The notes beneath the pieces are model-generated. The model saw only the letters and a program-made list of their open reading frames with translations, had not been told where the DNA came from and searched no databases. From positions 88,471 through 140,899 of the forward strand of contig SVKD01000003.1 in the NCBI GenBank assembly GCA_015068645.1: 52,429 nucleotides of DNA, read 5' to 3'. This document shows positions 13,390-48,215 of the stretch, one piece after another. The stretch comes from Oscillospiraceae bacterium. GTDB taxonomy: Bacteria > Bacillota > Clostridia > UMGS1840. The translations under genes and the position numbers were made by a program. Positions within the stretch are counted from its first letter, which is position 1; each line of letters starts with the position of its first letter.

Positions 13390-13446
13390 TATTGCCCACC
13401 TTATCTATTGCAACAAATCATATCAAATAAAAAGGAGTCTTTCATC

Positions 13447-16813: not shown

Positions 16814-16823
16814 GAGAATTCCT

Positions 16824-17885: not shown

Positions 17886-17912
17886 ATTTTAAACCGATGA
17901 AAGGATGCCCCT

Positions 17913-19046: not shown

Positions 19047-19061
19047 AGGAGAACAGAAGCT

Positions 19062-20072: not shown

Positions 20073-20093
20073 CCCCTAAAAGGAAGTGAGCTT

Positions 20094-20927
20094 TTGCAAC
20101 AAATCACCGAGATTACCAAAATCCAATCCCATCTGGCTGAACTGTTAGCCCATTTTGCCGATTTTTGCAAAAAACATAACCTCACCTTCTTTTTATCCAA
20201 CGGCACCTTGATCGGAGCTGTCAAATACCAGAACTTTGTTCCCTGGGATGACGACTGCGATGTGATGATGCCAAGAGAAGACTACGATAAGTTCTTAACA
20301 TTATATAAAGAGCATTATCCTCATGCCAAATATCGTCTGCTTTCCCGGGTAACATCCGAAACCTGGCGAATGCCCTATGCAAAATTATCCGACACCGCAA
20401 CCCTTTTAAGAGAAGGGGATTATGAATTCGGAGAAGAACTGGGGATTTCTTTAGATATTTTCCCCATAGACCGTTGGCATCCCAACAAAAAAAGAGCAAT
20501 CTTCCAAACATTTCGGGCAGAGCTTTACAAACGTTTTTTAATCTGTGCCAATGCGCCCTCTTTCCAAACTGAGAAAAAAGGCATCAAACGCTTCATCCTT
20601 TGGGGTATTCATATCACAGGAAAGGTATACGGCTGGAAGCGGTTGCAAAAAAAACTTTGCAATATGGCTGAAAAATCCCATAAATACCCCAATACTTACG
20701 TGGGCTGTGTGGCATGGTGTTGCCACGGAACAGGTGAAATTCTGCCGTCCTGCGTATTTTCAAACGCCGTGGATGTGACTTTTCAAGGAAAAACCTACCC
20801 TGCTCCCGCAGGTTATGACCAATATCTCACCAACTTATACGGAGAATGGAGAAAGGAACTCCCTCCCGAAAAACAAAAATCCAATCACAACATTGAGGTT
20901 TTCAAGAAAGATGTCGAAGAAATCTAA
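20094..20927 (+). CDS. LicD-family phosphotransferase
   Basis: LicD proteins transfer phosphocholine or related phospho-alcohols from a nucleotide carrier onto glycans. The 277-residue protein contains FFLSNGTLIGAVKYQNFVPW followed by DDDCDVMMPREDY, the nucleotidyltransferase-like active-site pattern of the family. Further matches are KLSDTATL and LGISLDIFPID. The likely start is a TTG at 20094 behind GGAAGTGA. The end overlaps the flippase gene by 17 bp. The same operon encodes a secreted enzyme with choline-binding-type repeats, which fits a phosphocholine-decorated polymer; that substrate is my inference. Confidence 0.9.
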   Translation: MQQITEITKIQSHLAELLAHFADFCKKHNLTFFLSNGTLIGAVKYQNFVPWDDDCDVMMPREDYDKFLTLYKEHYPHAKYRLLSRVTSETWRMPYAKLSDTATLLREGDYEFGEELGISLDIFPIDRWHPNKKRAIFQTFRAELYKRFLICANAPSFQTEKKGIKRFILWGIHITGKVYGWKRLQKKLCNMAEKSHKYPNTYVGCVAWCCHGTGEILPSCVFSNAVDVTFQGKTYPAPAGYDQYLTNLYGEWRKELPPEKQKSNHNIEVFKKDVEEI

Positions 20928-22335
20928 CGTCCTAAAAAATATGCTGCACGTTGCGTTCTCCCAGGGAATCTCTCTGGCGGCAAGCATTGTGACCAGTATT
21001 TTTCTTCCCAAAATTTTAAACGTAAACGATTACGGATTGTTTCGCATTTTCACTTTATACTTAGGGTACACCGCCCTGCTTCATTTCGGCTTTGTAGACG
21101 GAATTTTGCTGCGGTTTGCCGGAAACAACTATGAAAGTCTTTCCAAAGAAGAAATGCGCACCTATTCCCGTTTTTATATCACAATGCAGCTGATTGTGGG
21201 CGGAATTGTTTGCATAAGCGGAATATTTGTTGCCAACTCGGACTATCGCTTTATCCTCTGGATGTTGGGGATTGACCTTATTGCCATCAATTTGACCTCT
21301 TATTATCAGTTTTTATCGCAGGCAACCAAACGATTCCGGGAGTACGCCCTAAAAAATCTGACCCTCTCCGTCTTTAAAACAATTTTCGTATTGGCATTAC
21401 TCCTTTGCCACACCGGATTTCATTGGCAAATTTCTTACCGCTTTTATCTTTTGTTCTTAGTAATAGCCGACTTGCTGATGCTTCTTTGGTATCTTGTGAT
21501 TTACCGCAAAATTACCTTTGGAAAAAAACTCCCCCTCTCTGTGCAGAGAAAACCAATTGTTGATTTGTTCCGAACAGGGATTGTGCTGACTGTGGCTTAT
21601 CAGGTATCACACCTGATTCATATGCTGGACCGCCAGTTTGTCAGTATGCTATACTCCATTGAAACCTATGCGATGTACGCCTTCCCTTATAATCTGGTAA
21701 CCTTAATTTCCACCATGGTTTCTTCCATTGCCATTGTGATGTTCCCTATGTTAAAAAAATCAAGCAAGGAAGTCCTCGAAAAAAATTATAACACCATTTT
21801 ATCCGGCGTTTGTTCCATTATCGGTGCTGCTTTGGTGTTATACTATCCGTTGGTGGCATTTATCGGCTGGTTTTTACCCGAGTATATCCCCTCGGTGACC
21901 TACTTAAAAATTGTGCTTCCCTGCATTTTATACACAGGCGCCATTTCGGTAGTCATGTTCACCTTTGTGAAAATTTTAAATGAAAATTTCAAGTTTTTTA
22001 AAAACAGCCTACTCATTTTAGCCCTTGGATTTGTCACAAACTATATTGCACAGGTAGTATTTCATACCCCCCAGGCAATTTCATTTGCTTCTCTTTTCAC
22101 AATGGCTGCGTGGTTTGTTTTGGAGGGACATCATTTAAAAAAGATTTTAAACCTTTCCTATTTAAAAGAATTCTTATATGTATTAGCAATTACTGCAGGA
22201 TTTTTATTGATTGTAAACGTAATTTCCGAACTGTTTTTGGGAATGGGATGCTATCTGATTGTTTTTGCGACAATTACCTTGCTCTTCTATCCCAAACTAC
22301 CTAAAACAGCGCTGTCTTTTCTTCGAAAAAAATAA
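20911..22335 (+). CDS. Lipid-linked oligosaccharide flippase (polysaccharide transport family)
   Basis: Multispanning membrane protein of 474 residues with about 12-14 hydrophobic segments, of the Wzx/PST branch of the MOP superfamily. It moves undecaprenyl-linked units across the membrane. The N-terminus has the typical MLHVAFSQGISLAASIVTSI then FLPKILNVNDYGLF, and the centre DRQFVSMLYSIETYAMYAF. I choose the ATG at 20911 (MSKKSNVLKN) within the end of licD, because earlier in-frame starts lie deep inside that gene. It completes a Wzx/Wzy-type set with the EpsG-like polymerase. Confidence 0.9.
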   Translation: MSKKSNVLKNMLHVAFSQGISLAASIVTSIFLPKILNVNDYGLFRIFTLYLGYTALLHFGFVDGILLRFAGNNYESLSKEEMRTYSRFYITMQLIVGGIVCISGIFVANSDYRFILWMLGIDLIAINLTSYYQFLSQATKRFREYALKNLTLSVFKTIFVLALLLCHTGFHWQISYRFYLLFLVIADLLMLLWYLVIYRKITFGKKLPLSVQRKPIVDLFRTGIVLTVAYQVSHLIHMLDRQFVSMLYSIETYAMYAFPYNLVTLISTMVSSIAIVMFPMLKKSSKEVLEKNYNTILSGVCSIIGAALVLYYPLVAFIGWFLPEYIPSVTYLKIVLPCILYTGAISVVMFTFVKILNENFKFFKNSLLILALGFVTNYIAQVVFHTPQAISFASLFTMAAWFVLEGHHLKKILNLSYLKEFLYVLAITAGFLLIVNVISELFLGMGCYLIVFATITLLFYPKLPKTALSFLRKK

Positions 22336-22372
22336 TAAATTATATAAATTTTAAAAAAAGGAGACGAGAAAC

Positions 22373-25300
22373 GTGAAAAAAGTTTTTCGAAACGCATTAG
22401 CACTGGCACTGGTGCTTTGTATGCTCCCCCTGTCTGTTTTTGCAGCCGTGGATTACAATTTGGGTACCACCAACTGTAATTACTACAAGCTGATTTCCAA
22501 AACAGACTACAACTTAGCGCCCGGTGCGATTGAATCCGAAATCATCATCAATGATGAAACCGGCAACAACCGAAATGTAATCCACGCCATCGAAGTGGAT
22601 TTGACCAACCCCAACATTTCTGTGATGCCCACCAGCAAAAACATTTCGGAAACGGTTGATTATACCGATACCGATAACTGGGGTATCCAAACTATGACTG
22701 AACAGGCTGCACATGTAGAAAACGACCTGGGCTTAAATGTTGTGGGTGGTATGAACTGTAGCTTAAGCTGGAGCTTTACCCATCCTTACGGTCTGTTAAT
22801 TTACAACGGCAAAGTGCTGTGTGATAACAGAGCTTCCTGTGACACTTGTGGCGCAGGTCATCCCGGTGGCGGTTATCTTGCCATCACCAAAGACGGAAAA
22901 GCGGAACTCCGCGATAAAAACGCACCCTTAACCGGTGACGAATGGATGGCGCAGACCGTTTGCTTTAACTATCTGGTAAGAGATGGTGTTAATCTGCATC
23001 CTACCGAAGACCATAAGAGCGACCGTGCTCCCCGTTCTGTAATCGGTATCAAAGCAGACGGTAAATTAGTACTGATGATGAACGATGGTCGTCAGGCTCC
23101 CTATTCTGCAGGTTTCACTAACCACGAAATGGCAGAAACCATGATTGCTTTAGGCTGTGTGGATGCCATCAACTGTGACGGTGGCGGTTCCTCCACTTTC
23201 TTATCCGAAAGAGAAGGTACCAATGCGTTAACTATGAAATCCAGCCCCTCCGACGGTAGTGAACGTTCCACTCTGTCCGGTATTCTGGTAATTTCCAAAG
23301 CAACCAGAGACGGTAAATTCGACCATTTATCTTTAGAAGTATCTGATCCTTATGTAACTCCCGGTTCCACCGTTACCTTCACTGCTACCGGTGCTGACTC
23401 TGCCGGCGGTCCTGCAGAAATTCCTGCAGATGTAACCTGGCAGTTAAAAGACGCATCCATGGGTACTGTGGAAAACGGCAAATTTATCTCCAATGGTACT
23501 GTTGGAGAAGCTGTGATTCAGGCTGTTTACAATGGTAATGTAGTTGGCGAAGGCACCGTAAACGTAGTCATTCCCGAATCCATTTCCTTTGTTATGGCAA
23601 ATATTACCGCTCCCTTCGGCAAATCTGTTACTTTAGACGTAACCGCTAAATACGGCTACGCTGACGTAACCTTAAAACCCGAAGATGTAACCTTCACCTT
23701 ATCCGATAACGCTTTAGGTTCCATCGACGGTATTAAATTCACTGCTCCCAAGGAATCTGAAGTGGTATCCGGTACTGTTACCGCTACTTTGGTTCACAAT
23801 CCCCAGATTACTGCATCTGCAGGCTTAATGCTGGGCAAAGGCTCCGAAATTGTTTACGACTTTGAAGAAGGTCCCGAAGCAATTGCAAACTGGACTTTGG
23901 CCTATAAAGGCGTTTACACTCCCGATAAATATTTCTTCAACGATGAACTGAGCGTTTGTACCAAAGAAGACGGTAAGGTAAGAAACGGTAACTACGCATT
24001 CAAATACAAATCCACCTCCAATTCCATCACCTGTATGAACTGGTGTCAGAGTAAATTACAGGGTTGGAGCCTGGATTTAACCGACGCAGTTTCCGTAAGC
24101 TTCTGGATGTACATTCCCGAAGGTTCTCACGGTTATGAATGGGACTTCGGCAGTGCAATCCCGGTTGTATTGGGTCACGAATTCAAATACGGCACCGGCT
24201 GGCAGTATTTCACCGTTCCCGTAAAAGATATCGGTGCGAATGTAACCAGCTTAAACGAAGTTCGTTTGTATAGAAGTGATACCAACAACACTGCAGACGG
24301 TTATTATCACAACGAAAGACCCAACTACTACGCAGACGTTACCTACTATATCGACGATATAACCATTAACTACTCTTCCGCTGTGGAAGATTTTGATGCC
24401 CCCATCATTTCTAACGTGCAGGTAGGTCACTCCATGATCGATACCCCTATCGAAATCAACGGACAGACCATTTCTGAAAACGTGGTATCTTTTGTGGCAA
24501 ATGCAAGAGACGCTATGGATAAAACCAACTACACCGGTTTAGATGCTACCTCCGCAAAAATGTATGTAGATGGCGTTGAAATCCCCTCCACCTGTTCCTC
24601 TGCAGGTTACATTGCATCCAACAACGTAACCTTAGCAAACGGCGTACATACCGTTCGTGTGGAAATTTCCGATAACAACGGCAATACCTCTTATCAGGAA
24701 AGAACCTTAACCATCGAAAATAGCGCAAACACCTTAGACACCATCCACTATGTAAAAGCAGATGAAACCTTAGAAAACGTTGGTATCGGCTCTTTAGTAT
24801 GGATGAACTTAGTGTCTGACAACATCGAAAATGTGGACGTTATCACCACCACTTTGGAATTGGATAACAACAATACTTGGGAATTAGACCACATGGTATT
24901 GGCAAACGGTTTCTCAGCAGAATACACCATCGACCCCGAAACCAACGATGCAACCATTACCATTACCCGTGAAAACCCCACTGCTCAGACAGGAGAAGCA
25001 GTAGTAGCTTCCTTACCCATCAGAGTATGGATTCCTGAATTTATCAACACTACCGGTAGCGAAGATTACAAATCATACCGTCTGGTTTCCGTGATGACCG
25101 GCGTTGAAATGGGTCATTTGACCTGCACCGACGGTAACGAAGCAACCTTCGCATCCGAAATTCTGACTACTTCTACCGAATATAACTCTACCCGTCTGAC
25201 CTCCACCTTCGACAAAGAAGGCTGGCATGTTCACGAAGAAGTGGCATTAGAAGACAAAGCTGCAACCTGTACTGAAGACGGTTACACCGGCAGAACCTTC

Positions 25301-26548
25301 TGTAATGACTGTAACTCCATTATCACCTGGGGTGAAACCTTAGAAGCAACCGGCCATAACTACACTGTTGTTGGCGGTCAGAACGTATGCGCTAACTGTG
25401 GCGAAACCGGTTCCACCGCAAACGGCTGGATCGAAGACGAAAACGGTTGGAAATACTACTTAGAAGGTCAACCTGTATATGGATGGGTAAACTTAGAAGA
25501 CGGCTGGCATTATTTCCACTCCAATGGCTATGCTGCAAAAGGCACCGTTACCATGAATGGCATTGACTATAAGTTCAAAGGCGAAAAAGGTTTATCCGAA
25601 GGTGGCTGGAAATATACCGAAGACGGTAATATGTTCTACTACTGCCACAGATACTACAAACAGACTTGGGCAGAAATTAACGGTGATACCTACTACTTCG
25701 ACTACCGAGGCATTTGTGCAACCGGCATCACCACCATTGATACGGAAGCTTACGAATTTAGTGAAGACGGTAAACTGATTCGTGCAATTGATGGTGTATT
25801 CCTGTATGATGACTATTACTATTATGCAATCGACGGAAAAATCCAGTATGATACCGGTCTGATAAAATGGAACGATGATTACTACTATGTTCGTTTAAAC
25901 GGCCGTCTGATAACTTGGGCTATCACAATCTCCGAAGACAAAGCTAACGGCTTACTGCCCGAAGGCGATTACGCATTTGGCGCAGACGCTAAAATGATTC
26001 TGAAAAACGGTCCTGCTTTAGATGATTACGGCAACCTGTGCTTCTTCATTAATGGTCAGCAGCAGTACGGCATCGGTATGGTAGAATGGAAAGGCGATTT
26101 CTATTTCGTTCGTACCAACGGTAAACTGCTTACCTACGAAAGAACCATTGCAGAATCTGAAACCAATGGTTTAATCCCTGCAGGCACCTACCCCTTCGGT
26201 GAAGATGGTAAAATGGTACTGCCCAAAGGTACCTGGTTCTACGATGTTGAAACAGAAAAAATGGTAGATTCCTTAGAAAACGTAAACTACCTGCAGGCAA
26301 AAGTTACCTTCGAAGGAATCGAAACCGGCACCGCAACCGTATTGGCAGCTCATTACGATAAAACCACCAATGCACTGCTTGAAATGGAATTTATCGATGC
26401 CCAAGTGGTTACCACCGAAGGTGCAAACACCACTTACAACACTCCCACAATGACAGTTGGAGAAAGCGAAACCATCAAAATTTATGTTTGGAATTCTACC
26501 GGAGAATTAACTCCCGTGATGAGCACTCCTGCAGTGATTTCCAAATAA
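22373..26548 (+). CDS. Secreted phosphodiester glycosidase with choline-binding-type repeats
   Basis: Secreted modular enzyme of 1391 residues. The signal peptide ends about 24 (PLSVFA). A phosphodiester glycosidase (NAGPA-like) domain follows (about 55-305), with VVGGMNCSLSW, APRSVIGIKADGKLVLMMND and INCDGGGSSTF. Two Ig/Big-like domains (about 315-490), a CBM-like jelly roll (490-670) and further beta domains follow. A Cys-rich segment (about 950-1015) carries CxxC pairs (FCNDC, CANC). Next come CW-binding repeats (about 1015-1290, for example GWKYYLEGQPVYGW and GDTYYFDYRGI). A final module of about 105 residues begins WFYDVETEKMVDSL and matches the N-terminal module of the three Hint proteins downstream. 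GTG start behind AAGGAG. It probably trims or remodels the surface polymer. Confidence 0.88.
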   Translation: MKKVFRNALALALVLCMLPLSVFAAVDYNLGTTNCNYYKLISKTDYNLAPGAIESEIIINDETGNNRNVIHAIEVDLTNPNISVMPTSKNISETVDYTDTDNWGIQTMTEQAAHVENDLGLNVVGGMNCSLSWSFTHPYGLLIYNGKVLCDNRASCDTCGAGHPGGGYLAITKDGKAELRDKNAPLTGDEWMAQTVCFNYLVRDGVNLHPTEDHKSDRAPRSVIGIKADGKLVLMMNDGRQAPYSAGFTNHEMAETMIALGCVDAINCDGGGSSTFLSEREGTNALTMKSSPSDGSERSTLSGILVISKATRDGKFDHLSLEVSDPYVTPGSTVTFTATGADSAGGPAEIPADVTWQLKDASMGTVENGKFISNGTVGEAVIQAVYNGNVVGEGTVNVVIPESISFVMANITAPFGKSVTLDVTAKYGYADVTLKPEDVTFTLSDNALGSIDGIKFTAPKESEVVSGTVTATLVHNPQITASAGLMLGKGSEIVYDFEEGPEAIANWTLAYKGVYTPDKYFFNDELSVCTKEDGKVRNGNYAFKYKSTSNSITCMNWCQSKLQGWSLDLTDAVSVSFWMYIPEGSHGYEWDFGSAIPVVLGHEFKYGTGWQYFTVPVKDIGANVTSLNEVRLYRSDTNNTADGYYHNERPNYYADVTYYIDDITINYSSAVEDFDAPIISNVQVGHSMIDTPIEINGQTISENVVSFVANARDAMDKTNYTGLDATSAKMYVDGVEIPSTCSSAGYIASNNVTLANGVHTVRVEISDNNGNTSYQERTLTIENSANTLDTIHYVKADETLENVGIGSLVWMNLVSDNIENVDVITTTLELDNNNTWELDHMVLANGFSAEYTIDPETNDATITITRENPTAQTGEAVVASLPIRVWIPEFINTTGSEDYKSYRLVSVMTGVEMGHLTCTDGNEATFASEILTTSTEYNSTRLTSTFDKEGWHVHEEVALEDKAATCTEDGYTGRTFCNDCNSIITWGETLEATGHNYTVVGGQNVCANCGETGSTANGWIEDENGWKYYLEGQPVYGWVNLEDGWHYFHSNGYAAKGTVTMNGIDYKFKGEKGLSEGGWKYTEDGNMFYYCHRYYKQTWAEINGDTYYFDYRGICATGITTIDTEAYEFSEDGKLIRAIDGVFLYDDYYYYAIDGKIQYDTGLIKWNDDYYYVRLNGRLITWAITISEDKANGLLPEGDYAFGADAKMILKNGPALDDYGNLCFFINGQQQYGIGMVEWKGDFYFVRTNGKLLTYERTIAESETNGLIPAGTYPFGEDGKMVLPKGTWFYDVETEKMVDSLENVNYLQAKVTFEGIETGTATVLAAHYDKTTNALLEMEFIDAQVVTTEGANTTYNTPTMTVGESETIKIYVWNSTGELTPVMSTPAVISK

Positions 26549-26575
26549 TTCATAACGGTACTTAAAACCAAAAAG

Positions 26576-26599
26576 CCCCGGGAGCTTCGGCTCCCGGGG
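26576..26599. other. Very stable GC-rich hairpin with TTCG tetraloop
   Basis: CCCCGGGAGC, loop TTCG, GCTCCCGGGG. On the plus strand no T-run follows, so it is not a normal terminator for the operon; on the minus strand it is followed by CTTTTTGGTTTT. On the plus strand it more likely protects or separates the upstream mRNA from the phosphatase/kinase genes. Confidence 0.75.
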
Positions 26600-26627
26600 A
26601 ACCATCTTAACGAGGAGGGGATTTTCC

Positions 26628-27350
26628 ATGGAATTCTCCGATATTCACTCACACATTCTATTTAACACCGACGACGGTCCCAAATCCAAGGAAGAAATGT
26701 TTTCCTTGATTGATAAAATTTATGAAGAAGGGATCCGGCACCTTTGCCTGACCTCTCATTTTCATCCCGGTTATTACGGAAACAACACCTCTAAAAAGAA
26801 CCAAGCTTACGAAACTCTTTTAGAATACACAAGTAAAAAATATCCCGACCTTTACTTATATTCGGGCAATGAGCTTCACTATAGCCCCGACTGTGTGTCC
26901 TGGCTTCACGAAGGCCTTTGCCACACCTTGAACCACAGCCGTTATGTGCTGGTGGATTTTCCCCACCGCACCGCTTACAAAGAAGTGCAAAACGGCTTAA
27001 AATCTCTTCTTTCTGCGGGATACATTCCCGTGCTTGCCCATGCAGAACGTTACCGGATTTCCAAAAAGCAAGTTATTTCTTTAAAACAGTTGGGCGTTCT
27101 GATTCAACTGAACGCACAAGCAATTCTGGGAAAATCCGGCTGGTTTGAAAAAATAAAAACTCAGAAAATTCTGTCGAAGCATCTTGCCGATTTTGTGGCA
27201 ACTGATACTCACGACATCACATACAGACCGCCAAACCTTAAAAATTGTTACCAATATCTGCAGAAGCGATACGGCAAATCCTATGCCGATCACCTTTGCC
27301 TTAACCACGCATTAACCCTTATTCTAAAAAATTATTCAGGAAGGAAATAA
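26628..27350 (+). CDS. CpsB/YwqE-type PHP protein-tyrosine phosphatase
   Basis: Manganese-dependent phosphotyrosine phosphatase of the PHP superfamily that reverses BY-kinase phosphorylation and so controls polymer length or amount. It has 240 residues. Metal-binding motifs visible are DIHSHILFNTDDGPKS, LTSHFHPG, AHAERY and ATDTHD, with the family strand VLIQLNAQAIL. A strong GAGGAGGGG ribosome site precedes the ATG. It begins the regulatory trio phosphatase-adaptor-kinase at the end of the cluster, with 1-4 bp gaps between the genes. Confidence 0.94.
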   Translation: MEFSDIHSHILFNTDDGPKSKEEMFSLIDKIYEEGIRHLCLTSHFHPGYYGNNTSKKNQAYETLLEYTSKKYPDLYLYSGNELHYSPDCVSWLHEGLCHTLNHSRYVLVDFPHRTAYKEVQNGLKSLLSAGYIPVLAHAERYRISKKQVISLKQLGVLIQLNAQAILGKSGWFEKIKTQKILSKHLADFVATDTHDITYRPPNLKNCYQYLQKRYGKSYADHLCLNHALTLILKNYSGRK

Positions 27351-27351
27351 T

Positions 27352-28161
27352 ATGGAAAACAATACAAAAATCAGAGTGGTGTCCTTTGGAGACCTATGGA
27401 ACATATTTGTGCAGAAAATATGGATTATCATCCTGGTGTGTGTGCTGGTATCAGCCGGACTTTTTGCACTAGATACCTTCACCTTCAAACCGGAATATCG
27501 CTCCACGGCAACCATGTATATTCTTCGTCAGGATTTAAAACAAGTGACTCCTGAGCAAAACACTGCCGATGATGTAGCAACCGATTTTTCCTCCGCTTTG
27601 GACGTAGTAAGAGACTGCGACTATCTGATGAAGAGCTACACTGTGGTGGAACAGGTAAAAACCAACCTGAATCTGACGGAGGATTATCGCGAACTTTCCG
27701 AACGTATTTCCACCTCCAACCCGGAAAATACCCGTATCTTAGAAGTATCTGTTACGGCAGACTCTCCGGAATATGCAAAACGAATGGTGGATAATCTCTG
27801 TGAGGTGGGTGCCTCCGCCATCAACGAAACCATGGGCTTTGAGCAAATCAGCCTATATGAATACGGAAACTTAAACTACGAACCCAGCAACAAAACCAAA
27901 CCGCTTGTATTTGTATTTATCGGGCTGATTGCTGCGGTATTGACCTATTCCGTTTTCTTGATAGTCTTCCTATTGGATGCCACCATCAAAACAGATGAGG
28001 ACATCGAAAATTACTTAGGCTTAAGTATCTTAGGGGATATTCCCGAAGCCAATAACGATAAGAAAAACAAGCAAAAATATCGCTATAAATACAGACGTAA
28101 GGGTTATGGCTACGGCTATATCAATCCAAATATCTTAGAAAAAAACAAAGGGGAGGAATAA
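27352..28161 (+). CDS. Chain-length determinant / BY-kinase membrane adaptor (CpsC/CapA-like)
   Basis: Membrane protein of 269 residues with the Wzz fold: transmembrane helix 1 (about 22-43), an extracellular helical region beginning FKPEYRSTATMYIL, and transmembrane helix 2 (about 180-205), then a cytoplasmic tail. It activates the cognate tyrosine kinase and sets polymer length. The tail ends unusually in a Tyr- and basic-rich run, KYRYKYRRKGYGYGYINPN, similar in style to the kinase tail. It starts 1 bp after the phosphatase stop and ends 4 bp before the kinase. Confidence 0.92.
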   Translation: MENNTKIRVVSFGDLWNIFVQKIWIIILVCVLVSAGLFALDTFTFKPEYRSTATMYILRQDLKQVTPEQNTADDVATDFSSALDVVRDCDYLMKSYTVVEQVKTNLNLTEDYRELSERISTSNPENTRILEVSVTADSPEYAKRMVDNLCEVGASAINETMGFEQISLYEYGNLNYEPSNKTKPLVFVFIGLIAAVLTYSVFLIVFLLDATIKTDEDIENYLGLSILGDIPEANNDKKNKQKYRYKYRRKGYGYGYINPNILEKNKGEE

Positions 28162-28165
28162 ATAT

Positions 28166-28858
28166 ATGAAACCGATTCAGTTGAACCTGCCCGGAACCAA
28201 TGATTTTTTTACCGAAGAAGCTTACAAGGTGCTTCGCACCAATCTGCAATTCTGCGGAAAGGATGTAAAGGTGATTGTTATTACCAGCTGCAATGAAAAC
28301 GAAGGGAAATCCACCGTTTCTCTGCACGCTGCCAAAAGCTTTGCAGAGCTTGGAAAAAAAGTGCTTCTAATTGATGCAGATATGAGAAAATCCGTAATTG
28401 CAGGCAGAAACACCACTGTCACCAAACACAATGGCTTAAGCGAAGTGTTAACCGGGTTAAACACCTTGGAGGAATGTTTATATCCTGTGGAAGATTCTTC
28501 CATGAAGATTCTGTTTGCAGGAAAATATCCGCCCAATCCTGTGGAGCTTTTAAACTCCAAATATTTTGAAGAGTTAATCAATCATTGCCGCACAGAATAT
28601 GATTATATTATTATAGACACCCCCCCTTTGGGATTAGTTATTGATGCCGCTGTCATCGCCAAACAAAGTGATGGTGTGGTAATGGTAATCAGTAACGCTA
28701 AAGTGCACTACAAGGACGCACAAAACGTGGTAAACCTAATCAATAAGAGCGGCTCCAAAATGCTGGGAGTTATCCGTAACAACACCAATAAAACCAAAGG
28801 CCGCTATTCTTACAGAAAACGAGGCTACAAAGGTTATTATTCTGCATCAGAATCCTAA
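28166..28858 (+). CDS. Bacterial tyrosine kinase (CpsD/CapB-like)
   Basis: BY-kinase of 230 residues that autophosphorylates a C-terminal tyrosine cluster to regulate glycopolymer synthesis. It begins with the contact region EEAYKVLRTNLQF. Walker A is SCNENEGKSTVS, Walker A' VLLIDADMRKS and Walker B DYIIIDTPPLG. The tail carries the tyrosine cluster RYSYRKRGYKGYYSASES. In Walker A the usual GEGKS appears as NEGKS; the catalytic Lys is kept. It is the last gene before a strong terminator. Confidence 0.94.
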   Translation: MKPIQLNLPGTNDFFTEEAYKVLRTNLQFCGKDVKVIVITSCNENEGKSTVSLHAAKSFAELGKKVLLIDADMRKSVIAGRNTTVTKHNGLSEVLTGLNTLEECLYPVEDSSMKILFAGKYPPNPVELLNSKYFEELINHCRTEYDYIIIDTPPLGLVIDAAVIAKQSDGVVMVISNAKVHYKDAQNVVNLINKSGSKMLGVIRNNTNKTKGRYSYRKRGYKGYYSASES

Positions 28859-28910: not shown

Positions 28911-31900
28911 TTATTTCACATACAGTTTGATGAGTTTTAAGATGTAATCTTTGGTGAAAAGTCCTTTTTCTACAGGGATTCTTAAATAAGCACCATGAAA
29001 GTCCACAAATTGTTCATAGGTCACGTAATCTTTAAAATCATCGTAGGTGTATAATCCGTAGGTTGTTACATCTTTTTGGAAGCTTTCGGTATCATAACGG
29101 AGTTTATCTCCCATCGGTACCCAGTTATAGAAATCATCCGGCGGTGCTACTGTCAAAAGCCCTTCGGCAAGGGCATTATAGTTTCCTGCAGAAGTTAAAG
29201 AATATGCTCCTGTTACTTCATAGGTTTTTTCTGCCTGATCCAAAGTAACCAGACGATATCCGTCTTCATCCATTTTCACAAAGGTGTGACCGATGTACTC
29301 ATCCATATTATCTACGGTGAGATACACATATTTGTTTAAATCATAGTCAAACACACCGTGTTCTGCAATTACTTTTAATATCGCACCGTCGGAGAAGGTC
29401 AGGTTTGCAACGGGATATTCATCCACGCCGTGATTAACCACCAGTGCCACATCTTTTGCTTCGGTCTGTCCGGTAAAGAAATTGTAGGTCAGGATGGTAT
29501 CTTCGGTGGTAATATCTTGGATTGCCTTTTTAGTGCCGTCTGCCATTGTGATTACGGTATCAGCGGTAAAGCAACCGTTATCCTCTGCTGCGGCTAATGT
29601 ACCTTCGCAGAAAGCGGAATAACTATACGGATTGGTTTTATCTTCTGCCACACTCCAGGTATGAGAGAAACTCAGTTTTTTGCCGTTTTTATCTTCAAAA
29701 GTATAGGACACAGGCACATTTCTTGCTGTGTTTCCGGTATTTACCAAACCGCCGGAGTTAGATGCCACAAAGAACAACTTGTTGGTTCCGTTTACGTCCA
29801 CCACAACGGGCATTGCAAACACTTTATTGGAAGAATGCACCTGACCACCCGTTACGGTTAAGATAAAGTCTCCGTTGTCGGGTGTATAAGTCCACACAGT
29901 GTCAGTGTCATTCTGCTTGCCCACATTTTCGGGAGTGAAATCAGCCAAAGAAACGGTTTTATACTGACTTTCCGCCACACTCCAATAACGAACCTGTAAC
30001 CCTTCTAAAGCAGGTGCCGCACCGCTCCAGGTGCTTCCTTTTTTAGTTGCCACGCAAAGACCTGTTCCCCAATCGGATGCCACTAAGGAAGGCGCATCTT
30101 TATTGGATTCGGTACCACTGATATACAGAGGATAGGTATAAGTCACGGTTTTATCAAAACTTTCGCCGTTTTCATTGTAGAAAATATTGTCAGTAACAGT
30201 TACATCATACATTTGGGTACCAACTGTTACAGGAATTTTTTTGGTAGTGTCCACTGCCACACCATCTTTTTGGACGGTGTAGGAAAGTTCTTTGCCATAT
30301 TTTTCTAAAGTGAATTTGCCAAAATCAAAGCTGTATGCACCACGGTCTAAATTCACGGTGAAGCGGTTAATCCAACCGGTTTCGTTTACATATTCTTTGG
30401 TCAGCACTTTGTTTTCATCAGTTTCCTCATAGGTTGCAGTTGCTAAAATATTGCCGTTTTTGGTGGAAGTATAGGTAGGATAAGTGGTTACTTCAGCATC
30501 TGTACCATTGGAATTTTTATAGGAGAACACCTTTACCGAAGTCATATCCAGCGTTTCATAGGGAACTTCCGCTTTATTCACACGATTATCATAAATCACA
30601 GGGTCGGAAAGCACAGGATTGGTTCCGTCTTCAATCATATAGATAAAGCCTAAATTTAAAGAATCACGGGTAACGCCATCCCGGTAGGTAACAGGGTGAA
30701 TATAGTCGGTCTGATTTAAGACATAATTCACCATAGACTGCCCTTCTGCAGGCACATAGGTTTTATATTCCTCGTTTGCCCAGGCATACTGAATGAGTTT
30801 TCCTTCTAAGGTAATGGGGGTAGAATTCCCTTCGGAATCCGCAATGGTGATTAAGCTTAAGCCCATTAAAGTTTTCGTAGTATCGTGAACAGTTGCGGTA
30901 ATGGGTTCCTGAATCAAGGTCACATCCCGCATGGTGAGACTGTTTGCCGCATTTAAGTGAATATTGGCAGCTGCACCACCATATACGGTGGTGTTATCCA
31001 ACTCTAAATCCCCTGCAGTCACATACAGTGCCGCACGTCCGCCTTCAATATAGGAATTTTTAATACTGCAATCACCTGAGGTCATTACTGCGCTTCGGAT
31101 ATTGTAATAACGGGTTTTGGTGCCATCAATCTGATTGGGAGTGGGGTCATCTTTTTTATTTGCTTCATACAGAATGGGGAACGGGAAATGAGGTACTTTG
31201 ATTCGCACGTTATCTAAATTACCGTTTTCCATGGTCACAAAAGCATAACCTCTGTCTAATGCTGCTGAGTCTGAAGAAGCGGTTAACGAAAAACCGTTGC
31301 CGTAGATGGTATGTCCGCCTGACACGACAAGCTGACCCATTCCGCAATCATTTAAGAGTACAATATCACGGTCGGTAGCGCTTGCACCCGATGTCACGTT
31401 ATAAGCATCCACCACTTCCAGATAAAGCTCGGTAGGTTTGGTGTTTTCCATATCATCGGTAACAGTTAATTTGATAATACCGATTCCCTGTGCCCAAATT
31501 GTTCTGTTTTGCCAGTCTGCTTCATTGGAAACATGAACGGTAACACCTGTATTGTCCATTGCTTCTGCCGTAATACTCACGTTACCAAGTTCGCCACCAT
31601 CGATGGCAGAAAACAGTTTATTTACAGCAACAGCGTTCTGATTCCCGATACGGTATAAATAAGAATCGGTATTGGGAAATACCACTTCAAATTTTTCCGT
31701 TAAGATGGGCGCATAGGTAATGGTTGCCGCAGGAAGTAAGGGACAGATGGTTTCTTCATCGGTCCAGCAGAACACTCTGAACTCTTCCGTATCGCCCACG
31801 GTAATGTTTTCTATGGGAATTTCTAAAGTATCTCCCGGCAGACCTCCCTTCACAGAAACGGGTTCCATCTTGATAAGCTTGCCGCTTTCTTGTTCATAAT

Positions 31901-32111
31901 GGCCCACAAACACCGAAGCCATTGCAGATCTGGGTGCTTGGACAGTTACTTTGGCTTTTAAAGTGGTAACACCGTCTAATGTGGTAATCATTTTGTTGGT
32001 TTCGGCATTATAAAACACAACACCTTCTGCTTCGCTTGCTCTTGCCACAATGGATGCAAGCAGAACTGCAACCATGGCAATTACCAGAATAAAGCTTACT
32101 ACTCGTTTCAT
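28911..32111 (-). CDS. Secreted Hint-domain surface protein, shortest paralog (1066 aa)
   Basis: Signal peptide (about 1-27), then a module of about 100 residues starting VVFYNAETNKMITTLDGV that also ends the phosphodiester glycosidase. Next is a YLYRIGNQN domain (about 150) and a beta-helix-like region (about 215-390, for example IKNSYIEGGRAALYV). Further beta domains follow, then an acidic linker and a 220-residue C-terminus starting at Cys847 (bases 28914-29573). This C-terminus reads as a Hint domain: CFTADTVITMADG, EHGVFDYDLN (His918) and AYSLTSAGNYNALAEGLL, the block before the usual His-Asn. Here TVAPP replaces His-Asn, and a conserved 75-residue tail follows. By analogy with Hedgehog, N-terminal thioester cleavage is plausible but splicing is not. 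No anchor motif. AAAGGAA precedes the ATG. Confidence 0.85.
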   Translation of the reverse strand: MKRVVSFILVIAMVAVLLASIVARASEAEGVVFYNAETNKMITTLDGVTTLKAKVTVQAPRSAMASVFVGHYEQESGKLIKMEPVSVKGGLPGDTLEIPIENITVGDTEEFRVFCWTDEETICPLLPAATITYAPILTEKFEVVFPNTDSYLYRIGNQNAVAVNKLFSAIDGGELGNVSITAEAMDNTGVTVHVSNEADWQNRTIWAQGIGIIKLTVTDDMENTKPTELYLEVVDAYNVTSGASATDRDIVLLNDCGMGQLVVSGGHTIYGNGFSLTASSDSAALDRGYAFVTMENGNLDNVRIKVPHFPFPILYEANKKDDPTPNQIDGTKTRYYNIRSAVMTSGDCSIKNSYIEGGRAALYVTAGDLELDNTTVYGGAAANIHLNAANSLTMRDVTLIQEPITATVHDTTKTLMGLSLITIADSEGNSTPITLEGKLIQYAWANEEYKTYVPAEGQSMVNYVLNQTDYIHPVTYRDGVTRDSLNLGFIYMIEDGTNPVLSDPVIYDNRVNKAEVPYETLDMTSVKVFSYKNSNGTDAEVTTYPTYTSTKNGNILATATYEETDENKVLTKEYVNETGWINRFTVNLDRGAYSFDFGKFTLEKYGKELSYTVQKDGVAVDTTKKIPVTVGTQMYDVTVTDNIFYNENGESFDKTVTYTYPLYISGTESNKDAPSLVASDWGTGLCVATKKGSTWSGAAPALEGLQVRYWSVAESQYKTVSLADFTPENVGKQNDTDTVWTYTPDNGDFILTVTGGQVHSSNKVFAMPVVVDVNGTNKLFFVASNSGGLVNTGNTARNVPVSYTFEDKNGKKLSFSHTWSVAEDKTNPYSYSAFCEGTLAAAEDNGCFTADTVITMADGTKKAIQDITTEDTILTYNFFTGQTEAKDVALVVNHGVDEYPVANLTFSDGAILKVIAEHGVFDYDLNKYVYLTVDNMDEYIGHTFVKMDEDGYRLVTLDQAEKTYEVTGAYSLTSAGNYNALAEGLLTVAPPDDFYNWVPMGDKLRYDTESFQKDVTTYGLYTYDDFKDYVTYEQFVDFHGAYLRIPVEKGLFTKDYILKLIKLYVK

Positions 32112-33303: not shown

Positions 33304-36300
33304 TTACTTCACATATAAATCAATCAGTTCCAAAATGTAATCCCAGCTAAAGATTCCTTTTTCCACGGGGATTTTTAAGTATGCGCCATTTAATTCGATA
33401 AACTGTTCGTAAGTAACATACTGAGAAAAATCATCGTAGGTGTATAAGCCGTAGGATTCGATGTCGTTTTGGAAAGCATCGGTATCGTAACGGAGTTTTT
33501 CGCCCATCGGCATCCAGTTATACAAATCATCGGGAGGTGCTACTGTCAAAAGACCTTCTGCCAAAGCATTGAAGTTTCCGGCAGAGGTTAAAGAATATGC
33601 ACCGATGGTTTCCGTTGTTTTTTCTGCTTTGTCTAAAGTAACCGTGGTATAGCCGTCTTCGTGCATCTTCACAAAGGTATGTCCAATGTATTCTGCCATA
33701 TTGTCCATGGTGAGGTACACATATTGGTTCAAATCATAATCAAACACACCGTGGTCTTCGATTACTTTTAATACCGTACCGTCTGAGAAGGTTAAGTTGG
33801 CAACGGGATATTCTGCTACGCCATGATTTACCACCAGCGCCACATCTTTCGCTTCCATTTCACCTGTAAAGAAATTATAGGTCAAAATGGAATCCTCAGT
33901 AGTAATCTCTTTGATAGCTTTCTTCGTGCCGTCTGCCATAGTGATTAAGGTATCTTCACTAAAGCAACCGCCACTTGAGGAAGCAGAAACAGTTACATTG
34001 GAAGCAGGCATACTAAAGGTATAGGTACCGGCTGTGCTTTCGCTTAGTAAAGTATTTCCGTTTCCATCGGTCACCTTCAGGGATTTACTGTTATTCTGAG
34101 AGAAGGAAACAGTCACGGTAAAGCTGTCACCGTAATATGCAGTTTGTCCGTTGGTCACACCGGTTACGGTTGCATTGGATTGAGAAACAGTGATGGTATA
34201 GGGTGTTTTGACCCACTGTGCATATAAAGTGATGCTTTCATCAGGGGTGTAAGATGCACCTGCACCGCCGATTTTGGTGCCGCCCTCAGCTTGGGTAAAC
34301 CAACCCTGGAAGGTATATCCTGTGAGAGTGGGAGTGGGTAAGGTTAAGGGTGCGCCCATATAGGTCTGAGAATCGGTGGAACAGCTTCCGCCGTTGGCAT
34401 CATAAGTCACCACGGAAGGTGCTTCCCAATGGGCATACAAGGTGATATGTGCGGTAGGAAGATAGGTGTCATTTCCCATACCGATGAAAGTACCGCCGTT
34501 TTCTTCGGTATACCAGCCGGCAAATGCTCTTGCTGTGTCAGAGGGTAAGGGCAAGGTGAGAACAGTTCCCACATAATCCATAGAGGTGGGTGTTACGTTT
34601 CCGCCCGTTGGGTTGTAAGTTACGGTATAAACAGGGCTCCAGCCTGCATAGAAGGTGGTATTTTTGGTGGGATTTAAAATCACACCGTTCAACCCATAAA
34701 GCTTGGTACAAGCGGCATCTTCATACCAGCCTGTGAACCAATAACCCGATTTTTCTGGTAAGGGAAGAACGATTTGTTCTCCATTATAGTTTATAGTTTC
34801 GGGAGTTACGCTGCCACCCGTAGCATCCAAGGTCACGGTACAAGGTTTGCCCCACTGTGCATAGAGAGTAACATCACCGCCGGGAGTATATAAATCCCCT
34901 GCTCCGCCGACACGGTTACCCTGATAGGGAGCATCATACCAGCCGGCAAACACATACCCATAACGAGTGGGATTGGGTAAAGTCAATGTATTATAATGAT
35001 TGGTCTGATAACCAACACTCTGTCCGCATAAGCCCCCGTTGGCATCATAGGTCACGGTAGCAGACACGGTTGCAGAGAAAGTACCGGTGGGTTTGGTGAA
35101 ACTTGTCGCATCCACCCCGGACTTACCAAAGTTTACGGAACCCGAATTGATGACTACCCCGTTATTGCCGGTAAATTCGTAGTCATACACTCTCCAGATC
35201 TGACCGCTGGAAGCAGTACCACCGTCGTTTACTACATAGAAAATGTTTTTGTTGGTTTTAATCGAGCCGGAATGGGTAGAACCGCCTGCCGTTGCTTTGA
35301 CGTCCAGGTCAATTTTTAACACACCGCCATCCACCAGTTTTACGGTGATGATATGATAGCCTTTGGCTTCCCCGGTGGTATTTAAGTTTTCGATGGTGGC
35401 AGATACCACTTTTTGATAGGCGTTATCATCACCGTCAAATCTTAAATAACGGGTATCGCCCATATAGTCATAGATTTTTAAGCCTGCCAAGAAAGGCATA
35501 AACTGAATTTTATCGCCCAAAAGTGCTTTGTTGTAGTAAATCACCTGTTTCGTGGAATCAAACGAAAATTCCGCATTGGGGGTAGACGTGTCTTTTAATG
35601 CCACAGAAACCGGTAATTTTTTGGTGTAAACCACCGTTTGTGCCACACTTTCTCCGTTTTCGTTATAGAATATGGTATCGGTTAAGGTGTAGGTCACAAT
35701 GTATTCTTTTGTTTCGGATAGGGTGAGTTTTCCGTTGGTTAAAGAAACTTCATCACCGTTTTCATCGGTGCAGGTAATTTGGGTCTGCAAATCCTGACCG
35801 CTATACTTATTGATGTCAAATATTTTAGTAAAATCAATCTCAAAAGATTCTCCTGCAGGAATCATCACTTTTAAGGTGTCAGAATCCATATAGCAATATT
35901 TGTTGCAACCGTCCGTGTTGGCGATATACTGACCGCCCAAGGTGGAATTGGGATAAATCTGAGGTTCATATAATCCGTTTCCACCGCAGATGTACGGAAT
36001 CACGCCGTCAGTTTCGGGATTGTAACGGTAATCGGCAGTAACGGCACTGCCTGCCGCCACGGTATACACTCTGCCGGTTGCTCCCAAAAAGCTTACCTTG
36101 TTTAACGCATAAGGAATTTCCGCCTTGTTGGTACGCTCATCAATGATGTTGGCAGGATAAGAGGTGATGTATGCCATTCCCAAGTTTACAGTATTTTTAC
36201 CGTTTATGGTATGCTGATATGCACTTTCCTTTAATGCTACCTCCAACACGCTCTTAGCATAACTGTTGGAAACAGAAGAATGATCGCTGGTTACCCAGTT

Positions 36301-39300
36301 ATATTGTCTGAGGTCCCCTTTTAAACGAATATAGGGATTGGATTTGGTATCCGCATCCCCCACTGCAATCCCAAGACCCATCACGTTTTTGGAAGTATCG
36401 TAAGAAGAGGTGGTCATATACTGAATGGTGGTCACATCTTCTAAGGTAACAGTGAATTCGTCGGAACTTCTTACAATCTGAATGTTGGCAAAGCTTCCGC
36501 ATTCGGTAACGGTGTTTTTCACGGTGGCATTTCCGCCACCGATAAAAATGTTACATCTTGCACCATAAATATAACAGTTAGAAATGGTGGAATCATCAGT
36601 TAAAAGGACTGCAGATTTAAAGTAGTCATAACCCGATGCATCGGAGGTATATAAATAAGATTCGGGGAAAATATCGCAGATAATTCTGGTGTTATCTAAA
36701 ATACCGCCTTTGGATACATTGATAAAACCGGTGGTCAGCAGCTTAAGGCCGGGATTACCTTTTCCTGCACAGGTTACGGTAAAGCCGTTGCCGTAAAAAG
36801 CATAACCGTTGGACACGTTAAAGGTGCCGGAAATATCGTTTAATAATACCACGTTATTGGCAGTTGCCGATGTGGCAGTGGTCACGTTCTTCGCATCCAC
36901 AATTTCTAGGTACAAAGAATACGGAGTACTTTCTTCATCCGAAATGGTCACTTTTACCACGCCGGTACCGCTGAATTTTAAGGTAGACTTGGTCCAATCG
37001 GTGTTTTTGGTATAGGTAGCAGAAACCAAAGGAGTGTTTGCCAGAGGTTCCACTGCTACGTTTACGGTACCAACACTCACACCGTCTAAAGCTTTAAAGA
37101 TGCTTCCCAATGCCACGGTATTCTGATTGCCGATTCTATATAAATAATCTTCGTGATTTACAAATTTGGTATCAAATTTTGCAATCTGAGGAGGTGCTAA
37201 TTCTGTTACAGTTACGGTAGCAGAGGTTGCGGTACAGTAAAAACCGTCAGTAATGGTAACGGTATAAGTGCCGCCACCGCTAAAGGTGACAATACCGTTA
37301 TCCCAGGTTGCATCCTTCGTGAAGGAAGAAGCACCGGTTACAGACACAGTAGCATCTTTAATCAGATTACCGTTTGCGCTGAACAGCTCTCCTAAAGTTT
37401 TCGTTACTGCAACACCTTGTTCAGTTTCATAAGCTAAATCAGATTTTGCAGTCCATTTGTCAACTGCAGCAGGTTCTTTTACCGTAACGGTAGCGGTTGC
37501 TACGTTACAGTAGAAGTTATCGGTTGCGGTAACGGTGATGGTACCTAAACCTTCAACAGTTACTTTACCGTCTGCATAGGTACCGCCGGTTACAGTAATT
37601 TCTTTCACTTCATAGCCGTTGGTATCAAATAAATCTGCAAAGTCTACGGTGTACTTACCGCTTTCAATAGTAGCTAAAGTATGAGTTACTTCGATATCTT
37701 TGCCAATGAATTTGTCTACGTTTGCTGCATCGTTTACAACGATAATAGCAGTTGCTTCGTTACAGTAGAAGTTATCAGTAACAGTTACGGTGTAGGTACC
37801 AATGGTTCCGGGAACGGTAATAACGCCATCAGCATAGGTACCGCCATTATCTACAGTTACTTCTACTGTTTTGATAATTGCACCGTCAATTGCGGTGAAC
37901 AGGTCAGCGAAGTTTACGGTCTGGTCTTTGCCAACAGTATCAACGGTTAAGGTGATTTCTTTATTAGTTGCATTCCATTTATCAATGTTTGCAGGCTCGT
38001 TTACGGTTACGGTTGCGGTTGCAACATTACAGTAGTAATTATCGGTTACAGTGATCGTTTTTTTGCCAAAACCGTCCACGGTGATTGTGCCGTCTTCGTA
38101 AGTTGCACCGGTGACAGTCAGGTTATCCATATCTACGGGAACGCCGTCGATTACGGTGAACAGCTCGGCAAAGTCATAGGTTACGGTATTTGCTTCCGCG
38201 GTTTCTAAGGTGTGAGTATAAGTCACATCTTTACCAATGAATTTGTCGATGGAAGGAATGTTTTTGGGTGTGAAGGTGTAGGTTCTGCCAATTACGTAAG
38301 ATTCGTCTTCGTTATTGGGGTTATACATCTTCAGTGCCAGAGTTACTTCTAAATCGGGATTCGCTACTAAAAATTCAGGTGCGAAGAAGATCCCGCAATC
38401 AAAATCCTTTACCCGTTCATACACTTCCTGATAGGTGTATTTGAGACCGGGTTTTCCGTAGGCTTCTGCCGCGGTTTCCATAATTTTTAAGGGAGTACCG
38501 GGGGTCAAGGTGATAGCCATTTTGGGCACACTTACCCAAGCAGGACTCCAGGAATCGTACTGACCTGCCAGATAGCCGTCACAGGTTCCGTCTGAATGGA
38601 AGGTAGCAGTCTTATTGATCATGATTTCATAATCTGCATACCAGTCTCCAAACACTGCCAACTGAGATTCTGTAGAAGGGTCTGCTTTGAAGTTTAATGC
38701 AAAGGTTAAATCTACATCCTGGATTGCTTCTACATCCAGCTCGGTAACCGTTGCTGTGGGTAAGCAGAATTCAAAGTCTTTTTCTGCGATCGTATAGATA
38801 TTGCCATTTTCAGGATTTACCAGTACCAGTGCTAAGGAAACCTCCAGACCATCATTTTCTTTTAAGAAATCATGGGAGAAGTTTACGCCACAGTCAAAAT
38901 CTTTTACGGTTTCTGCTACATCCCTGTAAGTCACGGTTAATCCGGCAGCATCCATAATGGAAACAGGTGTATTTGCAGTTACCGCTAAATCGGTTGCCGG
39001 AATTTTTACAAATTCAGGACCGAATTCATCATACTGGCCGATTAAGTAACCGTCACGGGTACCGTCGGCATTGAAGGTTGCATCTTTGTTCATTTTGAAT
39101 ACAAAGTCTGCTTTCCAGTCGCCGTAGAATGCTAACTGTTCATCAGTTACTTCATCTGCTGTGAAGTTCAAAGCAAAATCCGCATCTTCTGCTTCGATTT
39201 CGGTAACAGTGGCTGTCGGGAGTTCCTCCAGCAGGTCACGTTCGATAATGCCGGGATTGGTTAACGGAACTAAAGAATCAGTACCCTCCCAGCAGAATAC

Positions 39301-39645
39301 TTTTAATAATTCGGTATCTGCTACCGAAATTTCTCTGCTGTATTGGTTTTCTTCCCCTGCCACAGCAGAAACTGTGGTAATAGGCTCTGTTTTACAAAGC
39401 ACACCGTCTGCAGTGTAGTGAGAAACAATCACCTGCGCCGAATTCTTTTCGGTTGGGGTAAAGGTGATGTTGGCAGTCACCGTATCGCATCCGTCCAAAG
39501 CGGTAATCACTTCTCCCCCTTCATTATAAAAGGAAACGCTTCCTAAATCGGAAGCCGTTGCAGCAAGGGCAGAAAATACCCCCAAAAGCAACGTAAGTGC
39601 AGTCAAAAGGCAAAGTAGTTTTTTTATGTTTTTCTTGGTTTTCAT
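33304..39645 (-). CDS. Secreted Hint-domain surface protein, middle paralog (2113 aa)
   Basis: Signal peptide (about 1-31), then the shared FYN module (about 35-137). Two repeats of about 155-165 residues beginning PTATVTE follow (about 141-462), then four Ig-like repeats each ending in a TVTDNFYCN-type motif (463-815). The YLYRIGNQN domain (about 836), a beta-helix-like region (about 930-1130) and four InlB-type repeats (1530-1812, for example GWYDAP...TLYAQW) come next, then a Ser-rich linker. The 220-residue Hint C-terminus (bases 33307-33966) starts at Cys1894 (CFSEDTLITMADG), with His1965 and NFNALAEGLLTVAPP; I count 175 of 220 residues identical to the 1066-aa paralog. AAAGGAC precedes the ATG. 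No SLH, LPXTG or other anchor is visible. Confidence 0.86.
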   Translation of the reverse strand: MKTKKNIKKLLCLLTALTLLLGVFSALAATASDLGSVSFYNEGGEVITALDGCDTVTANITFTPTEKNSAQVIVSHYTADGVLCKTEPITTVSAVAGEENQYSREISVADTELLKVFCWEGTDSLVPLTNPGIIERDLLEELPTATVTEIEAEDADFALNFTADEVTDEQLAFYGDWKADFVFKMNKDATFNADGTRDGYLIGQYDEFGPEFVKIPATDLAVTANTPVSIMDAAGLTVTYRDVAETVKDFDCGVNFSHDFLKENDGLEVSLALVLVNPENGNIYTIAEKDFEFCLPTATVTELDVEAIQDVDLTFALNFKADPSTESQLAVFGDWYADYEIMINKTATFHSDGTCDGYLAGQYDSWSPAWVSVPKMAITLTPGTPLKIMETAAEAYGKPGLKYTYQEVYERVKDFDCGIFFAPEFLVANPDLEVTLALKMYNPNNEDESYVIGRTYTFTPKNIPSIDKFIGKDVTYTHTLETAEANTVTYDFAELFTVIDGVPVDMDNLTVTGATYEDGTITVDGFGKKTITVTDNYYCNVATATVTVNEPANIDKWNATNKEITLTVDTVGKDQTVNFADLFTAIDGAIIKTVEVTVDNGGTYADGVITVPGTIGTYTVTVTDNFYCNEATAIIVVNDAANVDKFIGKDIEVTHTLATIESGKYTVDFADLFDTNGYEVKEITVTGGTYADGKVTVEGLGTITVTATDNFYCNVATATVTVKEPAAVDKWTAKSDLAYETEQGVAVTKTLGELFSANGNLIKDATVSVTGASSFTKDATWDNGIVTFSGGGTYTVTITDGFYCTATSATVTVTELAPPQIAKFDTKFVNHEDYLYRIGNQNTVALGSIFKALDGVSVGTVNVAVEPLANTPLVSATYTKNTDWTKSTLKFSGTGVVKVTISDEESTPYSLYLEIVDAKNVTTATSATANNVVLLNDISGTFNVSNGYAFYGNGFTVTCAGKGNPGLKLLTTGFINVSKGGILDNTRIICDIFPESYLYTSDASGYDYFKSAVLLTDDSTISNCYIYGARCNIFIGGGNATVKNTVTECGSFANIQIVRSSDEFTVTLEDVTTIQYMTTSSYDTSKNVMGLGIAVGDADTKSNPYIRLKGDLRQYNWVTSDHSSVSNSYAKSVLEVALKESAYQHTINGKNTVNLGMAYITSYPANIIDERTNKAEIPYALNKVSFLGATGRVYTVAAGSAVTADYRYNPETDGVIPYICGGNGLYEPQIYPNSTLGGQYIANTDGCNKYCYMDSDTLKVMIPAGESFEIDFTKIFDINKYSGQDLQTQITCTDENGDEVSLTNGKLTLSETKEYIVTYTLTDTIFYNENGESVAQTVVYTKKLPVSVALKDTSTPNAEFSFDSTKQVIYYNKALLGDKIQFMPFLAGLKIYDYMGDTRYLRFDGDDNAYQKVVSATIENLNTTGEAKGYHIITVKLVDGGVLKIDLDVKATAGGSTHSGSIKTNKNIFYVVNDGGTASSGQIWRVYDYEFTGNNGVVINSGSVNFGKSGVDATSFTKPTGTFSATVSATVTYDANGGLCGQSVGYQTNHYNTLTLPNPTRYGYVFAGWYDAPYQGNRVGGAGDLYTPGGDVTLYAQWGKPCTVTLDATGGSVTPETINYNGEQIVLPLPEKSGYWFTGWYEDAACTKLYGLNGVILNPTKNTTFYAGWSPVYTVTYNPTGGNVTPTSMDYVGTVLTLPLPSDTARAFAGWYTEENGGTFIGMGNDTYLPTAHITLYAHWEAPSVVTYDANGGSCSTDSQTYMGAPLTLPTPTLTGYTFQGWFTQAEGGTKIGGAGASYTPDESITLYAQWVKTPYTITVSQSNATVTGVTNGQTAYYGDSFTVTVSFSQNNSKSLKVTDGNGNTLLSESTAGTYTFSMPASNVTVSASSSGGCFSEDTLITMADGTKKAIKEITTEDSILTYNFFTGEMEAKDVALVVNHGVAEYPVANLTFSDGTVLKVIEDHGVFDYDLNQYVYLTMDNMAEYIGHTFVKMHEDGYTTVTLDKAEKTTETIGAYSLTSAGNFNALAEGLLTVAPPDDLYNWMPMGEKLRYDTDAFQNDIESYGLYTYDDFSQYVTYEQFIELNGAYLKIPVEKGIFSWDYILELIDLYVK

Positions 39646-48127: not shown

Positions 48128-48215
48128 TAGGGCCACTTCCTTTCTTTTTACACAAGATATATATGATTACATTTTTATTCTCAAATATTCCTATGGGATT
48201 CATTTGTGCACTTTC

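Follow-up and report, generated by a model that had tools for sequence, protein, structure and literature searches.

A Hint domain paired with a conserved C-terminal tail domain on secreted proteins of gut Clostridia and on phage proteins

Three neighbouring genes with a shared C-terminal arrangement

The window analysed here is a stretch of 52,429 nucleotides from the genome of an Oscillospiraceae bacterium (contig SVKD01000003.1, positions 88,471 to 140,899). It contains three adjacent open reading frames, all on the minus strand, that encode proteins of 1066 aa (positions 28911-32111 of the window), 2113 aa (33304-39645) and, when read from a GTG start, 2756 aa (39866-48136), each with an N-terminus that reads like a signal peptide. 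Every one of these proteins is made up of a secreted N-terminal cargo, a Hint domain and a short tail domain. In the 1066-aa protein the cargo (29574-32111, minus strand) carries a signal peptide predicted from its sequence, MKRVVSFILVIAMVAVLLASIVARA, and matched no Pfam domain in a Pfam search; the Hint domain (29139-29573, minus strand) starts at Cys1, whose codon lies at 29571-29573, carries His72 and ends in LLTVAPP with no His-Asn; and the tail (75 aa, DDFYNW...LIKLYVK) occupies 28914-29138 of the same strand. The cargo of the 2113-aa protein (33967-39645) contains four Flg_new (InlB/Listeria-Bacteroides) repeats and is followed by a Hint domain at 33532-33966 and a 75-aa tail at 33307-33531. 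That of the 2756-aa protein (40532-48136) contains three Flg_new repeats together with tandem internal repeats with periods of 459 nt and ~260 nt, and is followed by a Hint domain at 40097-40531 and a 76-aa tail at 39869-40096; all of these features are likewise on the minus strand.

Within the three Hint domains, Cys1 lies in a GCF or SCF motif and His72 in EHG or DHG. The domains end in AEGLLTVAPP (1066-aa and 2113-aa proteins) or AEGMLTLAPP (2756-aa protein), after which the tails of 75, 75 and 76 residues, respectively, run to the stop codon. Relative to the tail of the 1066-aa protein, the other two are 73% and 67% identical. An earlier note, made from the letters of the window, had described paralogs that end in LLTVAPP or MLTLAPP and then continue for about 75 residues, and we found this arrangement in all three window proteins. 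What the note named as three paralogs and as proteins of 2113 and 2753 aa are, however, the same three genes; the conservation of the tail among them holds, but the longest protein comes to 2756 aa from its GTG start. A search of the genome found no fourth copy of Hint plus tail. Curated profiles detect the Hint domain weakly (the Pfam Hint profile matched the 1066-aa protein at E=0.00067, under the curated cut-off) and detect nothing in the tails of the window proteins.

The point at which the Hint domain stops was fixed independently in two ways. By profile alignment, the solved BIL2 domain 6y75 stops with ...NGVLAH opposite ...GMLSM of the window family, and by structural alignment most Hint matches stop at model residue 153-158. 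The C-terminal His-Asn that characterizes inteins and type-A BIL domains was present at this end in none of 79 aligned relatives, which bears out the claim that the splicing Asn is missing. As neither a terminal Asn nor a following nucleophile is present, the Hint domain would not be expected to splice. The accompanying claim that C-terminal cleavage should be impossible is too strong, however, because C-terminal cleavage through an atypical reaction has been reported for B-type BIL domains without the motif (PMC7765530).

Occurrence of the tail and its pairing with the Hint domain

The tail is present in 78 relatives from gut Clostridia, some Bacilli and phage contigs. Hint plus tail occurs in three of five genomes of the window's family, a family that consists of one genus. 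At the level of the class, 13 of the 391 genomes in the sample gave matches spanning the tail. When 84,980 species genomes were scanned, 67 related loci were recovered, most with a full tail and mainly from gut Clostridia, with some from Bacilli; single matches labelled Bacteroidales, Corallococcus and Saccharibacteria may be mis-binned contigs.

Searches with a profile of the tail alone returned the same places as Hint plus tail. All 20 strong matches among the 391 class-level genomes were of this kind, arguing that the co-occurrence of tail and Hint domain is not due to chance. The only strong matches among 398 phylum-level genomes were the window genome's own three copies, and a scan of viral contigs with the tail recovered seven tails, each fused to a Hint domain. 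The check that the earlier note had suggested, a search for the tail on proteins that lack Hint, therefore turned up no confident case in the class-level genomes, the phylum-level genomes or the viral contigs. A tblastn search against phage and plasmid records gave no match. Weak tail-only matches (L114, L115 and L192-L196; E 0.0008-0.009 per genome) were set aside as seemingly due to chance, since those that were read, L192-L196, are partial and lie inside unrelated proteins; the match in L115 is also partial (12.8 bits). In nearly all relatives the protein ends 0-15 residues past the matched tail, the exceptions being L138, with some 280 further residues, and L065, with 46; in L088 the tail match stops 32 residues short of the end of the protein. 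Relatives with Hint only (L074, L075 and L077) are without this tail and also without the terminal His-Asn, and in L075 and L077 the protein stops 2-3 residues past the Hint domain. The literature searched, in which coverage of subscription journals was poor, held no earlier description of the tail.

The two domains are conserved to the same degree. Across 51 non-redundant members (<75% identity), mean pairwise identity is 0.41 for the Hint domain and 0.41 for the tail, and the similarity matrices of the two domains correlate at r=0.76, a value that 0 of 2000 permutations reached. The conserved residues of the tail include Tyr172-Gly173, Lys198 and Lys203. An AlphaFold2 model of Hint plus tail has a pLDDT of 92.7 and a pTM of 0.88, and the tail modelled alone is predicted to form four helices (pLDDT 89.8, pTM 0.76). 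Foldseek found no match to the tail in the PDB, a result that is not evidence of an unknown fold, as a second look had one chain to align. A profile of the tail had no significant match among PDB sequences, and comparison with Pfam and PHROGs gave scattered single-member matches (EF-hand, Fasciclin, PMBR, XkdX) with no consistent family. The tail is acidic, with a mean net charge of -8.7, and looks soluble more than clearly membrane-seeking. The best description of it is a partner dedicated to the Hint domain, which it could merely stabilise.

Hint fold, active site and likeness to known systems

The modelled Hint domain aligned with Tetrahymena BIL2 (6y75; Z 18.9, 2.1 A, 141 aligned residues), Hedgehog (1at0; Z 17.5, 2.0 A, 138 aligned) and a BIL domain of C. 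thermocellum (2lwy; Z 17.3, 1.8 A, 134 aligned), the matches covering model residues 7-155. Cys1, His72, Gly95 and Phe98 are invariant in the 51 non-redundant members, and Asp76 is present in 50. With structural Z scores of 17-19, an N-terminal Cys and the block-B His, the domain has the defining features of the Hint superfamily. The residues for N-terminal thioester chemistry remain, as had been proposed, and such chemistry is the best reading of Hint plus tail. Nearly all members, however, have Ile or Val in place of Thr69 of the TxxH motif; in Hedgehog this Thr supports catalysis, and the T326A variant is greatly reduced (PMC9163320). Its loss would fit proteins in which processing has disappeared and the Hint-tail unit serves merely as a folded cap or binding domain. 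We regard this as improbable, because invariance of Cys1 and His72 over deep divergence would not be expected without catalysis.

The family aligns with Hedgehog without gaps from Cys1 to His72, which places position 46 opposite D303/D46, where Hedgehog has the Asp (or His) that activates the sterol. The three window copies have Val, Val and Ile at this position, with His at position 48. Asp46 is found in 44 of 78 members, with three changes on the tree, and counts as about one event because it is nearly confined to one clade, a large sister clade of the window copies. In Hedgehog the D303A variant keeps thiol cleavage and loses full cholesteroylation (PMC9163320); in this respect, the Asp46 sister clade seems closer to Hedgehog than the window's own copies do. 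The tail occurs both with and without Asp46 and is thus not tied to it. Members with Asp46 also tend to carry a second Cys, at position 133 of the Hint domain (41 of 44, against 0 of 34 members without Asp46); lying near the active site, this additional thiol might act as a relay for the thioester.

Like the Hog domain of Hedgehog, the module comprises a C-terminal Hint domain on a secreted cargo, with Cys1 and His72 and no terminal Asn, followed directly by a helical extension; in the sister clade it also has the Asp corresponding to D303/D46. The tail, a helical domain directly after Hint, accordingly occupies the position of the Hedgehog SRR, as had been put forward; the SRR is a helix-loop-helix of 50-100 residues (PMC7242414). 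Unlike in Hedgehog, the window copies have Val or Ile at position 46, Thr69 is replaced, and the hosts are bacteria and phage with no known sterol link. Motif J of Hedgehog (SCYA, with Cys143; described in PMC2362128) is absent, position 143 being Pro, Thr, Ala, Ser, Gly or Phe, and Cys in 0 of 51. The tail has no detectable sequence likeness to the SRR, and the structures compared by fold included no SRR; when full-length Hedgehog (6td6) was compared with the family profile, the match was confined to the Hint domain. The layout, and Asp46 in the sister clade as a hint of similar chemistry, lend the analogy with Hedgehog partial support; the window's Val or Ile at 46, the missing SCYA and the acidic tail that matches no solved structure do not. 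We describe the module as apparently Hog-like in layout, with no identity with the Hog domain implied.

In its motif pattern, the family resembles type-B BIL domains as a bacterial Hint without the intein C-terminal motif, yet it has its own constant C-terminal tail domain. Tetrahymena BIL2 (6y75, 6tmm) is the nearest solved structure to the Hint part both by sequence (E=4e-8) and by fold, but BIL2 has a C-terminal Asn (it was solved as N143A) and the solved chain is without such a tail. Outside Hedgehog-type proteins, we know of no Hint domain, and found none in the literature searched, that has its own constant nucleophile-recognition domain.

Cargo, phage members and a possible role

Pfam searches of 40 ectodomains identified Flg_new in 12 and Flg_new_2 in three, and subtilase, LRR_5, Big_2, dockerin and a/b-hydrolase domains in one or two each. 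Among 134 flanking genes of relatives there was no conserved neighbour, no family recurring beyond four Flg_new. As the cargo is diverse and the neighbours are not conserved, Hint plus tail is better described as a portable C-terminal module than as a toxin with an immunity gene. Hint domains directly precede C-terminal toxins in many bacteria (PMC3482391), and those of the window, like the Hint of PT-HINT pretoxins, are located towards the C-terminal end of long secreted proteins, so that the tail might be a toxin that Hint releases. The tail is, however, conserved across distant species rather than polymorphic and matches no toxin family, and a polymorphic-toxin arrangement seems to us very improbable. 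The PT-HINT form of this reading was rejected on two grounds: the PT-HINT profile (PF07591) had no match in the window genome, and no immunity-like neighbour is conserved.

On phage contigs (L199-L205 and L135-L137), Hint plus tail forms the C-terminal end of a protein some 730-820 residues long. Examination of three of these contigs (L201, L202 and L137) placed its gene immediately behind the portal gene; in L201 it is followed by the gene of a large protein that contains PBECR nuclease domains. Because the phage proteins are made in the cytosol, an acceptor found only in the envelope cannot explain the whole family. The lipid or glycan acceptor that had been proposed is weakened to this extent: one bound purely to the envelope does not fit a module that is also carried by cytosol-made proteins of the virion region. 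Loci L139-L147 belong to a second family of Hint proteins in phage, in which His-Asn is absent and a different conserved extension (NNIYPIxDMKFVKD...GLRLxEQ) forms the C-terminal end; the N-terminal matches of one member, L145, are tail/baseplate-like.

We lean towards a reading in which secreted proteins, and some proteins of the phage virion region, carry Hint and tail as one portable, self-processing C-terminal module. Once exported, the Hint domain would fold and the peptide bond before Cys1 would shift to a thioester, as suggested by the Hint fold and by the invariance of Cys1 and His72. An outside nucleophile would then resolve the thioester and the cargo would be released from Hint-tail, the tail beside Hint probably governing which nucleophile reaches the thioester and when, in the manner of the Hedgehog SRR. 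A nucleophile retained on the cargo would make the outcome ligation, whereas water or a small thiol would make it release. The loss of Thr69 in nearly all members and the lack of Asp46 in the window copies count against this explanation, as do the cytosolic synthesis of the phage members, the other anchoring that the SLH domains of the genome imply, and the chance that the tail simply stabilises Hint.

Phage tailspikes have self-cleaved chaperone domains, and Hint-tail could in a similar way be a folding aid: it would cap cargo that is long and repetitive or fibrous, or help such cargo to fold, before the module is itself set free through hydrolysis or by a small thiol. In favour of this, long and repetitive cargo is frequent, the module is encoded by phage genes of the virion region, and a related Hint, followed by another C-terminal extension, occurs in a phage tail/baseplate protein. 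We nonetheless consider a folding aid rather unlikely, given that the module is also found on enzymes such as subtilases and that Hint-only relatives exist without the tail.

By analogy with Hedgehog, it is possible that the tail recruits an acceptor. In full, such a counterpart would have the tail recruit a cell-wall or capsule sugar, a lipid or an amine, to which Hint would covalently attach the C-terminus of the cargo, providing anchoring without sortase. The position and size of the tail are those of the SRR (PMC7242414), one clade has Asp46, the surface cargo is diverse, no sortase was found in the window's genus and the window genes adjoin a capsule locus (described below). Against these points stand the absence of Asp46 from the window copies and of the SCYA motif from the family, the acidity of a tail with no fold match, a capsule neighbourhood that relatives do not keep, and the cytosolic phage members, and we treat ligation of this kind as a tentative possibility. 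Similarly doubtful is a bacterial and phage Hog-like ligase in which Hint, combined with an independently arisen adduct-recognition domain, would join the C-termini of many surface proteins to an acceptor without sortase.

Returning to the self-processing module that we favour, if the tail does recognise the nucleophile, gut bacteria would possess a self-contained, sortase-independent means of cleaving, and possibly attaching, their surface proteins, and C-terminal protein conjugation would gain a useful tool. Hint plus tail also offers a bacterial setting in which to test the origin of Hedgehog processing.

No sortase was detected in eight of the 13 tail-bearing genomes (the count covers tail-bearing genomes only), among them all three from the window's genus, so that attachment to the cell surface could take a different route. 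The window genome, in which sortase had no match, contains 64 matches to SLH domains, an abundance indicating that other anchoring exists there. One SLH-domain protein is encoded within the window, at 13408-15198, just upstream of a capsule/exopolysaccharide locus (15297-28858) that is convergent towards the Hint genes and adjoins them. This locus encodes a sugar transferase, glycosyltransferases, EpsG, LicD, a Wzx-like flippase, a phosphodiester glycosidase, CpsB/CapC, Wzz and a tyrosine-kinase-like ATPase. The capsule as acceptor, judged from this neighbourhood, was set aside, as capsule genes do not recur beside the loci of relatives. Within the window itself, the capsule locus and the Hint genes appear linked, because the C-terminal domain of the phosphodiester glycosidase (NAGPA) protein (22373-26548; FYDVETEKMVDSLENV...) resembles, by eye, the N-terminal domain of the three Hint proteins (FYNAETNKMITTLDGV...).
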